DNA of 25,240 nt from a virus. A program made the position numbers and the translations under genes. Location: positions 1 through 25,240 of the IMG/VR virus record IMGVR_UViG_3300027659_000190. The stretch is one strand, 5' to 3'. Positions 22,634-25,239 of the stretch are shown one piece after another (position 1 is the stretch's first letter; each line of letters begins with the position of its first letter). Below the pieces are notes generated by a model. It saw nothing but the letters and a program-made list of their open reading frames with translations, had not been told where the DNA came from and did no database searches.

Positions 22634-23446
22634 TTAATCTGTACAAAATCCTGCCTGACATCCACTACCTGTGCCAAAGAAAAAGTCCTGCTGAAGACCT
22701 ATTTTTTTTATTTGTTCGTAACTAATATACTCTTTCCAAGTTCCTTTTCCAATTTTTTCTTTATCAGAAAACCATTGTAGTTTTTGAGTATTATCATCCC
22801 AATTCTTTCTTAATTGTTGATTTGGTTTATGAAAACATCCAACACAATTAGAATCTTTTGGGAATATAATACCTGAGCTTTCTGCCCATTTGTAAACCCT
22901 GTAATGTCCTATTTTATTATCTATTAAAGGAAACCATCCTTCTCGCCACTCTATTTCTTCCCATTTATTTCTTGTTCCTCTTTTTCCTGTTATTCCCTTG
23001 AAAATAGTACTAAATCTATCTGCTCTTTCTTTTTCATCATATCTATAACCAATTCCCATCTTAACCTTTTCTCCAATGTTCTTATACCACCAATCCCAAA
23101 TGGGTCTAATTTTCATTTCTGTTGTGCAAAATCTGCGTAGTTTAGATGGAAGCCATCCACCATTATTTTTTATTACATTATCAAATGACTTACCTGTAAC
23201 CCAAATAATTTCTTTGCCTAATAACTGCTCTAAATCTAACATCGCAATTAAAGTAGAATCATCCTCTGCGGTGGCTATAAATTCTTTTCCTATTTTATCG
23301 CTTACTTTCTGAACAAGTCTTTTATCTTTTGGTTGGCAATTAATATCATCAATCGTTACTAATGCGAAAATATTATAATCGGCAGGATAATGAACCGCCA
23401 TAAATGAAGATGTTTTTCCTCCTGATAATGAATGTATTGTTTTCAT
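22634..23446 (-). CDS. PP-loop ATPase / PAPS-reductase-like protein
   Basis: From the ATG at 23444-23446 the product is 270 aa. The PP-loop SGGKTSS (8-14) would bind ATP and release pyrophosphate. Further signatures are FCTTEMKIRPI with Cys107, NCVGCFHK (Cys201, Cys204) and CQAGFC (Cys263, Cys268). Five cysteines in this arrangement could hold an Fe-S cluster or zinc, as in sulfur-transfer relatives (DndC, TtcA). It might thiolate tRNA or DNA, or reduce sulfate; the substrate is not shown. An upstream TTG-started extension of 12 residues is rejected. A long leader with hairpins precedes it. Its base composition is slightly more A/T-rich than the structural genes. Confidence 0.8.
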   Translation of the reverse strand: MKTIHSLSGGKTSSFMAVHYPADYNIFALVTIDDINCQPKDKRLVQKVSDKIGKEFIATAEDDSTLIAMLDLEQLLGKEIIWVTGKSFDNVIKNNGGWLPSKLRRFCTTEMKIRPIWDWWYKNIGEKVKMGIGYRYDEKERADRFSTIFKGITGKRGTRNKWEEIEWREGWFPLIDNKIGHYRVYKWAESSGIIFPKDSNCVGCFHKPNQQLRKNWDDNTQKLQWFSDKEKIGKGTWKEYISYEQIKKIGLQQDFFFGTGSGCQAGFCTD

Positions 23447-23504: not shown

Positions 23505-23816
23505 CAACTCCTTTATGCAGGAAGGGGAGGTTATCCTTACTACATTTGAAATATAACCTTTTAAAGAAAACAGGTCATAAATCTATACAAAAAGAATAAA
23601 CACTACCACGTTGTTAAATGGTCGTTATGCAGCGAACTTTATGTTTGTTAATCAACTCCCTTCCTGCCCACGTTGTTAGTTTAAACAGAGCGTGGTTTTA
23701 CTTTTACAAACACAGTTTATTCTTTTCAGTTGTTTTTGTTTGCAGGTTGTGTTTTCTTACCCTGACAGGAAGTACAATTCATACAACTCCCCCATGTATG
23801 TCTTGTTGTTATGCAG
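23505..23816. repeat. Repeated short motifs in leader of PP-loop gene
   Basis: The gene-free stretch repeats three short words on the + strand. TTATGCAG occurs at 23513-23520, 23625-23632 and 23809-23816. CAACTCC occurs at 23505-23511, 23653-23659 and 23784-23790. CCACGTTGTT occurs at 23606-23615 and 23668-23677. CGTGG at 23691-23695 can pair with either CCACG copy, giving two mutually exclusive hairpins. No gene over 20 codons with a credible start lies here. Confidence 0.5.
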
Positions 23817-23820
23817 CTAT

Positions 23821-23860
23821 AAAAAGGAAAAGCCTGCTTCATAGCGGGAAGACAGGCTTT
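23821..23860 (-). terminator. Strong intrinsic terminator
   Basis: On the minus strand an 8-bp stem (AAAGCCTG with CAGGCTTT, 23853-23860 and 23829-23836) with an inner 4-bp extension is followed by TCCTTTTT. This is a good intrinsic terminator for leftward transcription. It ends the candidate small RNA or transcripts reading through from the phosphoesterase. Confidence 0.65.
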
Positions 23861-23919
23861 ATATAGAAAATCCTTAAACAGAAAGGTCTTATAAAAGTGT
23901 TACCCGCTATGTAACAACA
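23821..23919 (-). ncRNA. Candidate small RNA with complementary hairpin loops
   Basis: A predicted minus-strand transcript of about 95-100 bases starts near 23919, just after the promoter at 23923. Hairpin A (23898-23916) has a 6-bp stem TGTTAC/GTAACA with a 7-base loop. Hairpin B (23829-23860) has an 8-bp stem AAAGCCTG/CAGGCTTT, a 4-bp inner stem CTTC/GAAG with one bulged base, and a 7-base loop. The + strand loops are CCGCTAT and ATAGCGG, exact reverse complements, so the loops could kiss. A small third hairpin CCTT/AAGG lies at 23872-23886. The RNA would end at the T-run after hairpin B. This is a candidate; expression is not shown. Confidence 0.5.
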
Positions 23920-23922
23920 ATG

Positions 23923-23953
23923 CAAATATCTACTTATTTTTTGAATAAACAAA
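23923..23953 (-). promoter_or_regulatory. Promoter candidate for small RNA
   Basis: On the minus strand TTTG (23950-23953), 19 bases and GATATTTG (23923-23930) give the Bacteroidetes pattern with a single mismatch in the first base of TAnnTTTG. It lies between the two terminators, and its expected start point is next to hairpin A. Confidence 0.45.
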
Positions 23954-23966
23954 TAAAAGTTATAAA

Positions 23967-23996
23967 CAAAAAAAGAGGCCGACATTGCTGCCGACC
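23967..23996 (-). terminator. Strong intrinsic terminator after phosphoesterase gene
   Basis: On the minus strand GGTCGGCA, loop GCAA and TGTCGGCC form an 8-bp stem with two G-T wobbles and a GNRA loop, followed by TCTTTTTTTG. This is an unambiguous leftward terminator 85 bases after the phosphoesterase stop. Confidence 0.75.
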
Positions 23997-24080
23997 CCAC
24001 AAAACTGATAATATGAAAGAAACTTACTGCACAAATGTAATCAATCTTTGTTAGGTAGTTACTCAAACTTATTAACAATA

Positions 24081-25097
24081 TTAATATATTTTGCCTTCAA
24101 TAATTGTTTTTTGCGTTACCTTGTAATCTCCCTGCTTATCTATTTGCAGATGGATAAAACCATGCGACCAGTTGTTATGTGCGCCCATATATGCAGGAAA
24201 CAAATCACAAAGGCATCCACTCGAATAACAGGAATATGGTTGCTCTCCAAAGTTCTTACCCATGTCTTTAGTTTCCCGATGAAAGTGGTTAATGATTGCA
24301 GACTTATTTAGCTTTAACCTTGCTGACCTTGCAGGGTTTACTCCTCCAGATGACAACCCGATTTCGTGGCCGTGAAATATAGCCATGTGCTTGCCTGCAT
24401 AAATAACCTGTTTATCGTAAACGAGATGAATATTTAAACTAACCAACTGCAATAAATCTTCCAACTTTGTGCCTTCAATATCCATCAACTCTGGTGCTTT
24501 CTGCATAATCCACTTTTCGTAGCGGATGTCGTGGTTTCCAAGTTTGTAAACTATGTGTTTATTAGGAAACATTGCCCTCAATCCTTTTAGAAATGTTCTT
24601 GCAGTGTCTAATTCATAACTTACACTTCGCTTCCTTAAGTCCTTTTCGTGTCGACTAATCAAAGAAAAGTCTATTAAATCGCCATTTATTATAATTGTGT
24701 CTACATCATTTTCCAATCCATATTCCAATGCAGCAAATAATGCCGTGTCATCGTGGTATGGGATATGAATATCTCCAATGATGAGAATGTTCTTGCTTGC
24801 AGTTGGCAAATGGTATGGCTCTTTCTTTTCGGTTTCACCTTTGGGCAAATCTTTCTTTAGCTTGTCAAGTTCTGCCCGAAAGTCTTTGTGCAACACCTCT
24901 CTGCTTCTGTCACCAAGTGAGCCTTTTAAAACTCTGATTTGAGTTCTTGCCTGCTCGACTGATAAATAAAACTTTGGGTACTTTTTAACAAATGCTTTGG
25001 CAAGGGTTAAATGTGGAGTGTTAGGAAACTTTAATACCATTTCCTTTAGTGCGGTAATGTGAGGTTGTTCAATCCTCTTCCGTTGCGTTGGCTTCAT
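24081..25097 (-). CDS. Calcineurin-like metallophosphoesterase with N-terminal helical domain
   Basis: From the ATG at 25095-25097 the product is 338 aa. Residues about 100-300 are a two-metal phosphoesterase: GDIHIPYHD (108-116), NGDLID (138-143), GNHDIR (187-192), HGHE (242-245) and HFHRE (271-275) provide the metal and phosphate ligands. Residues 1-90 are helical and basic (RIEQPHITALKEMVLKFPNT), perhaps a DNA-binding domain. Such enzymes in phages act on nucleic acid ends or on nucleotides. An ATG-led extension to 25130 would add 11 residues and lengthen the overlap with the upstream gene, so the shorter form is chosen. A strong terminator follows. Confidence 0.85.
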   Translation of the reverse strand: MKPTQRKRIEQPHITALKEMVLKFPNTPHLTLAKAFVKKYPKFYLSVEQARTQIRVLKGSLGDRSREVLHKDFRAELDKLKKDLPKGETEKKEPYHLPTASKNILIIGDIHIPYHDDTALFAALEYGLENDVDTIIINGDLIDFSLISRHEKDLRKRSVSYELDTARTFLKGLRAMFPNKHIVYKLGNHDIRYEKWIMQKAPELMDIEGTKLEDLLQLVSLNIHLVYDKQVIYAGKHMAIFHGHEIGLSSGGVNPARSARLKLNKSAIINHFHRETKDMGKNFGEQPYSCYSSGCLCDLFPAYMGAHNNWSHGFIHLQIDKQGDYKVTQKTIIEGKIY

Positions 25098-25239
25098 ATA
25101 TATTTTTAAGGTGGTTGTAGCATAGTTCAATGGCCATTCGCCTTATCTCAATGACCCTATCTCTTTCCTTCTTGCTCATCATAGCAGTATCAATGGAATC
25201 AACCATTGCAAATGCGTTATAGGCTGCACCTATTATTTC
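25069..25239 (-). CDS. Unknown protein, C-terminal fragment (runs off right edge)
   Basis: The last 56 codons of a gene enter from the right edge and stop with TGA at 25069-25071. The residues are helical and charged (SKKERDRVIEIRRMAIELCY then NHLKNIYEANA). The frame overlaps the phosphoesterase start by 29 bases. The start lies outside the window, and no family was recognised. Confidence 0.55.
   Translation of the reverse strand, partial: EIIGAAYNAFAMVDSIDTAMMSKKERDRVIEIRRMAIELCYNHLKNIYEANATEED

Follow-up and report, generated by a model that had tools for sequence, protein, structure and literature searches.

A predicted small RNA with complementary, covarying hairpin loops in a virus record and its counterparts at the replication genes of Bacteroidetes phages

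The stretch of DNA analysed here, called the window, is a virus record of 25,240 bases whose terminase has its closest cultured match, at 55% identity, in Flavobacterium psychrophilum phages. Its minus strand carries a metallophosphoesterase gene (24081-25130) and a PAPS-reductase-like gene (22634-23446), and the intergenic region between them holds a predicted RNA unit on the same strand. The upstream metallophosphoesterase transcription unit ends at an intrinsic terminator (23975..23998, minus), a 10-bp stem followed by TTTTTTT, which is also kept in the contigs L002, L003, L005-L008 and L011. Beyond it lies a promoter of the Bacteroidetes sigma-A type, TTTG-N19-GATATTTG (23923..23953, minus), with TTTG at 23953-23950 and GATATTTG at 23930-23923; this promoter is conserved in L002, L005, L008 and L100, and the version in L006 reads TTTG-N19-TATCTTTG. 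The TAnnTTTG box of Flavobacterium sits at -12 to -5 (PMC9723704), which places the +1 of the window RNA near 23918. The predicted small RNA is about 97 nt from this inferred start to the end of its T tract (23822..23918, minus), transcription being inferred from promoter spacing, terminator and covariation, and both RNA ends are accounted for by a sigma-A-type promoter and an intrinsic terminator.

The 5' hairpin, P1 (23898..23916, minus), lies almost at the 5' end of the RNA, given the inferred start, and has a 6-bp stem (TGTTAC 23916-23911 / GTAACA 23903-23898) in which L002 shows a compensatory C-G to A-U change. It presents loop 1, ATAGCGG (23904..23910, minus). A small middle hairpin, P2 (CCTT/AAGG, 23872..23886, minus), is read from the bases alone; it is retained in L005 despite differing flanks, and other hairpins of 4-6 bp occupy its position in L006 and L196. 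The terminator hairpin, P3 (23829..23860, minus; -14.6 kcal/mol alone), has 8 + 4 bp and a bulged T, and runs in the order AAAGCCTG (23860-23853), bulged T, CTTC, loop, GAAG and CAGGCTTT (23836-23829), followed by the T tract TCCTTTTT (23821..23828, minus). Loop 3, CCGCTAT (23841..23847, minus), is complementary to loop 1 at seven of seven positions and covaries with it, so that the two are taken as kissing partners. The match extends to nine bases (CATAGCGGG/CCCGCTATG), each partner being present exactly once in the window. An earlier note on this DNA had described the promoter, hairpins and terminator together with the exactly complementary 7-base loops and their extension to nine, and its coordinates and sequences are correct base for base; the two hairpins that it listed stand, and P2 (23886-23872) had been overlooked.

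In what form might the two loops meet? The fold of the window RNA has a z-score of -3.2, and in the nested minimum-energy fold (-27.3 kcal/mol) the 9-bp match forms an ordinary long-range helix, while P1, P2 and P3 together amount to -21.2 kcal/mol and the loop-loop duplex by itself to about -9. Because the energy model leaves out the loop-loop kiss, the kissing and long-helix states are close, and on these modelled energies a switch between the hairpin state and the long helix is possible.

The closest relatives of the window RNA, group A, were obtained with a protein search of IMG/VR using the metallophosphoesterase, which gave ten close contigs; those that reach far enough have the same promoter-hairpin-terminator unit at the same place, with loops that differ yet match. 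The loop pairs are ATAGCGG/CCGCTAT in the window and L008, GTAACGG/CCGTTAC in L002, ATAGGAC/GTCCTAT in L005 and L011, and GAGAGAG/CTCTCTC in L006 and L100, the last of these contigs having been retrieved by a promoter pattern and not by the metallophosphoesterase search. Compared with the window, two loop positions differ per side in L002 and three in L005, all of them compensated, with the terminator stem unchanged in L002 and a single change in the inner stem of L005. Over five sequences, five of the seven loop-loop pairs have changed on both sides, and the covariation score is 0.743, where slid partners give 0.09-0.30. In a more distant relative, G012 (phosphoesterase 69% identical), the unit occupies the same position and its loops match over 6 bp (L196). 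A scan with a fixed loop and stem pattern returned 14 matches, one of them a true relative (L090, the contig of L008) and the others about the chance number, and no relative came up when phage records were searched at the DNA level, whether the query was the window region or a group-C RNA. As a separate observation, the identity of L008 and L002 to the window stops right after the RNA terminator (window ~23820), and L008 combines the window's loops with the downstream DNA of L002.

A wider set of RNAs was found by searches that ignore the loops and by some that use them. These RNAs follow a common plan, in which a TAnnTTTG promoter is succeeded by a 5' hairpin, a linker and an intrinsic terminator, and the 5' loop pairs over 6-8 nt with the apical or an internal loop of that terminator; by this architecture the window RNA belongs to a broad Bacteroidetes-phage RNA set. 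A descriptor of promoter, hairpin, terminator hairpin and complementary loops, run over 1.6 Mb, gave only the family and a few weak matches in coding regions; in related phage genomes it gave group B (L185, L207) and group C (L148, L152, L177). With the group-C terminator pattern and the loops left free, 51 contigs were retrieved, whose loops form the matched sets ATTGCAGC/GCTGCAAT, ATTCCAGC/GCTGGAAT, GTCGCAGC/GCTGCGAC and ATAGCAGC/GCTGCTAT; of 53 cases, two are exceptions. A covariance model blind to the loop pairing brought up the diverged L154, whose new loops TTCGCAGG/CCTGCGAA match at 8 of 8 positions. A search with the replication protein 3' of the RNA, rather than with the RNA, gave 80 contigs; the loops match in all 20 distinct complete group-C leaders from this search, which added the types GTAGAGG/CCTCTAC, ATTCAGGC/GCCTGAAT, ATTACGGC/GCCGTAAT and TTCCGGC/GCCGGAA, as well as a group-B leader with loops ATTGCAG/CTGCAAT (L378). 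Group D comprises a larger leader of about 140 nt, in which a small 5' hairpin has an 8-nt loop that is matched by a loop within the terminator (TTAGAAC/GTTCTAA, TTAACAC/GTGTTAA, GTGAAAA/TTTTCAC and CTAACAA/TTGTTAG). Free folding leaves both partners unpaired in all group-D members tested except L395, in which part of the 3' partner is taken up by a competing 3-bp hairpin. Upstream of 3001 in L396, another leader of about 140 nt precedes the same replication gene and has a weaker 5-bp candidate, TGCCA/TGGCA, between its hairpin loops.

Group C, the largest, keeps the pairing in 45 of 47 RNAs. Across its 26 distinct sequences 98.6% of the loop-loop cells are paired (3-69% in slid controls), two-sided changes are found at four of the eight loop-loop pairs and one-sided changes at none, and the covariation score was reached by no shuffle. 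The terminator loop varies by 0.32 differences per site against 0.09 and 0.05 in its own stem, a 3-6-fold excess, and the P1 stem and loop both lie at about 0.33-0.37. Wobbles in the terminator stem number 43 for G·U and 0 for A·C, which indicates an RNA of the predicted strand. In L215 and L412 the minimum-energy fold already consists of P1 and P3 with open loops. The only group-C contigs with a broken match are L224 and L248, each with 5 bases left; L224 resembles a cross between two loop types, and L248 carries one substitution. Two further apparent breaks, L425 and L443, were withdrawn because the wrong P1 hairpin had been picked, independent analyses showing a match. A GGGTT/AACCC anti-terminator was likewise dropped for most members, as the terminator stem begins after AACCC and the pair forms a separate P2. 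The idea put forward in the earlier note, a small RNA transcribed from the minus strand and carrying hairpins with complementary loops, is therefore supported by the covarying loops of relatives, though without transcript data, and the comparison it had proposed comes out as expected: both loops change and the pairing is kept, with loop-breaking exceptions in 2 of 47 RNAs in group C.

Where the RNA lies differs between the window's own group and all others. In every group except A, the terminator stands between the promoter and phage replication genes, about 10-50 nt before genes of the replication module, with DUF6291, VapE/primase-type and DnaB-type genes as neighbours; for groups C and D and the majority of group B the distance to the replication-gene start codon is 10-20 nt, and in L185 (group B) a DnaA-like gene lies just upstream. 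Various genes follow the group-C element, so that, with the identity break after the terminator, the RNA marks a module border. The group A RNAs, the window's included, are not 5' of a replication gene and stand alone behind another gene. A relative of the window phage with a 72% identical terminase, G001, carries instead an RNA of group B, flanked by a DnaA-like gene and the replication genes, which suggests, without proving it, that the RNA has moved in the window's lineage. At least three tandem promoter-terminator units of about 100 nt each are also present in G001, 3' of its phosphoesterase gene (L012 4033-4800), and no kissing loops were recognised in these tandem units. Outside phages, the group-C pattern found scattered GC-rich terminators in bacterial genomes, where a strict scan gave nothing convincing; the covariance model had no match in five Bacteroidota genomes; and plasmid records were without the replication protein that follows the RNA.

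Cultured carriers are found among phages of Flavobacterium, Cellulophaga and Olleya. Leader RNAs of the lillamy-type and mumin-type Flavobacterium phages are nearly identical except in their loops, which are GTGAGACG/CGTCTCAC in lillamy, hattifnatt, hemulen, filifjonk, sniff, snork, stinky and tooticki, and GTGGAACG/CGTTCCAC in mumin and snusmum; the more diverged morran has GTGAGAAG/CTTCTCAC, so that phages of two related hosts hold three loop types. All eight loop positions pair in every one of these cultured phages (100%), with three of the eight pairs changed on both sides. These Flavobacterium phages, which infect hosts LMO6 and LMO9, have been described as virulent, the mumin-type included (PMC7077304). 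Identical loops are shared by at least eight virulent phage species whose Flavobacterium hosts are related, which means that loop diversity is not needed among those phages. Cellulophaga phages phi10:1 and phi19:1 have GTACGAC/GTCGTAC in two hairpin loops 5' of the corresponding replication gene, and downstream of this leader lies an operon that includes a TOPRIM primase/helicase. In Cellulophaga phage Nekkels_1 (L457 2325-2485) TTGGAA/TTCCAA is joined by a second pair, GTCTAAC/GTTAGAC, read by eye, and two separate kissing pairs seem to lie within one very long terminator. For Olleya phage Harreka_1 the terminator was seen before its partner: its loop predicted the upstream sequence, and GTGGTGG/CCACCAC was found there.

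Taken over all groups, all 28 tabulated loop pairs reach a match of at least 6 Watson-Crick bases, against only 20 of 756 wrong pairings, and two further pairs read by eye both matched. Pairs A5, B1, B2, C5 and C11 are not unbiased, since the descriptor behind them requires complementarity; the close relatives in group A, C1-C4, C6 to C10, group D and the cultured phages were not obtained with this descriptor, the group D and Cellulophaga pairs having been read by eye from leaders retrieved by protein similarity. What ties groups A to G and the Olleya phage together is architecture and the kinship of their phages rather than any similarity in RNA sequence, and the groups may therefore be one old family or repeated inventions. 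Since IMG/VR contigs are fragments, a single RNA per genome is only suggested.

How does such an RNA compare with known systems? No Rfam 15 family, pRNA included, reaches its gathering threshold, the best being tp2 at 28 bits against a threshold of 50, and another Rfam search gave none at E<=0.5; no description of RNA-level control of Bacteroidetes-phage replication was found in the literature searched. RNA-directed early termination of replication genes is established for phage P4, where complementary segments of one untranslated leader transcript 5' of these genes govern termination in cis or as a released short RNA, the CI RNA, with its relatives IsrK and SeqA (PMC4825925). Complementary segments in a leader 5' of replication genes are equally present in groups B, C and D and in the Cellulophaga, Flavobacterium and Olleya phages, and not in the window. 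The leaders described here differ from P4 in ending at their own terminator, in pairing loop to loop, in the virulent lifestyle described for the cultured Flavobacterium carriers (PMC7077304) and in the absence of an Rfam match, whereas the P4 CI RNA is made by processing and is used in lysogeny.

The terminator of plasmid pT181 also lies upstream of a replication gene. Its kissing-hairpin antisense attenuator is an established mechanism in which a kissing hairpin controls the terminator and the recognition hairpin confers the specificity of pairing (PMC3753616). The pT181 partner RNA, however, comes from the opposite strand, while both partners here are on one RNA and one strand, as the wobble count bears out, so the case is not one of opposite-strand antisense and every change needs a second change 50-90 nt away. 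The right- and left-hand loops of phi29 pRNA covary across phages and likewise provide two complementary loops on one small phage RNA (PMC12670572), yet they pair over 3-4 bp and serve packaging, whereas the RNAs here pair over 6-8 bp in a replication-gene leader; covarying loops of the pRNA kind are present, a phi29-type motor and membership of the pRNA family are not. The phage RNAs GOLLD and ROOL are held together by conserved kissing loops (PMC12286853); they are hundreds of nucleotides long and often near tRNA islands, and the RNAs here have about 100-160 nt, a promoter and terminator, and no Rfam match.

The two hairpins, the covarying complementarity, the strand, the promoter, the terminator and, in every group other than A, the position at replication genes are established by these comparisons; whether recognition occurs in cis or in trans is inferred. 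Since the pairing is kept, loop 1 must meet loop 3, within one molecule or between copies. The position of the RNA suggests control over transcription passing the terminator, and the changing letters suggest that the match and not the sequence is read; perhaps foreign copies must not match. The reading preferred here, at about even confidence, is that the RNAs are self-recognising leader attenuators with competition in trans included. The terminator would cause most transcripts to end early and leave a short RNA, an inference from its presence in the leaders; P1 could kiss the emerging terminator loop in cis, finished copies of the RNA would compete for this kiss in trans, and kiss and competition would jointly scale read-through into the replication genes with phage genome number. 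Such competition would act only among RNAs of the same loop type. An attenuator with a trans-competing product fits the kept pairing, the fast-changing letters and the leader position, and by analogy would resemble control by the phage P4 CI RNA and in plasmid pT181. Against it stand the absence of group A from replication genes, the 2 breaks among 47 group-C RNAs, the loops shared without difference by the eight or more virulent Flavobacterium phage species, the long-range helix in the window's minimum fold and the lack of RNA sequence similarity between the groups. The attenuator part is inapplicable to the window because no replication gene follows; the window RNA, alone behind another gene, would act only as a free short RNA.

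The main rival holds that the kiss is purely structural and confined to cis, tying the 5' end to the terminator so as to protect the short RNA or stabilise the terminator, without recognition from one molecule to another, while the loops drift, any complementary sequence being good enough. This possibility, rather unlikely though not to be dismissed, draws on the geometry, with P1 within about 3 nt of the inferred start and P3 at the 3' end, so that a kiss closes the RNA, and with linkers of about 20-40 nt that permit contact in cis; identical loops in several phages of related hosts agree with it too. Neutral drift, however, would alter the terminator stem as well as its loop, which diverges 3-6 times more, and C-G to G-C exchanges and adjacent double changes, seen in near-identical backgrounds, also speak against it. 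The roles suggested in the earlier note fare unequally. A regulatory role is favoured by the location of the RNA in relatives, where it lies between promoter and replication genes, and packaging and host targeting are left without support. For packaging, a multimer in the manner of phi29 pRNA would join loop 1 of one copy to loop 3 of the next; pRNA loops covary too (PMC12670572) and each RNA here has both partners, but the window phage matches ordinary terminase large and small subunits, relatives have the RNA at replication genes and Rfam, pRNA included, has no match, which makes this very improbable. Small RNAs often bind their targets through loops, and the group A RNAs stand alone behind another gene, so a trans-acting RNA aimed at host or phage mRNAs, with the mutual match as a storage or sponge state, might be considered. 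An outside target would nevertheless fix one loop, whereas both change completely and vary freely between relatives provided that the mutual match holds, and the proposal is accordingly improbable.

Could the RNA be incidental, or the match fortuitous? Inverted repeats serving a recombinase or replication protein at the DNA level would suit the end of identity right after the terminator in L008 and L002 and the different genes behind the group-C element, but neither the preference for G·U over A·C on the transcribed strand nor the fixed spacing to promoter and T tract is met by such an element, for which there is hardly any likelihood. As for chance, two hairpins whose loops have 7 bases in complement do arise about once per few kb under loose criteria; when promoter and terminator are required as well, the 7-base matches in 1.6 Mb are only the window RNA and its relatives. 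In all fetched phage DNA, 103 terminators have an upstream loop-loop partner of at least 7 Watson-Crick bases, against a mean of 7.5 (2-11) when the upstream DNA is shuffled; the count includes alternative stem registers and comes from a set in which the family is over-represented. With covariation in several independent groups, the relatives refute chance, to which practically no credence remains, and the loop-loop match of the window is real and selected.

The significance of the RNA plan lies in its recurrence across many phage groups with one pairing rule and changing letters, placed where replication-gene expression could be set. Bacteroidetes phages are abundant in water and gut. A tentative extension, possible but not probable, is that the replication-leader loops are widespread 'passwords' that sense RNA of their own kind, control copy number, exclude co-infecting siblings and diversify like plasmid incompatibility groups. 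Cultured carriers of three naturally occurring loop types are available for two related hosts and make recognition in cis versus trans testable at once, and the natural, mutually distinct kissing-loop pairs would offer a ready parts list for RNA control circuits.

Two minor features of the window also lie between the metallophosphoesterase and PAPS-reductase-like genes. One is an exact 10-base inverted repeat, GCAGGAAGGG/CCCTTCCTGC (23517-23526 and 23658-23667, minus), the downstream arm of which is just 5' of an AAGGAG-ATG start; both arms are retained in L006 and nearly so in L100, and the repeat is possibly another regulated leader. The other is a short reading frame, MNCTSCQGKKTQPANKNN (23726-23782, minus), with GGGGGAG upstream, which is kept in L006 with a longer C-terminal end (MNCTSCQGKKTQPANKNNGKE).
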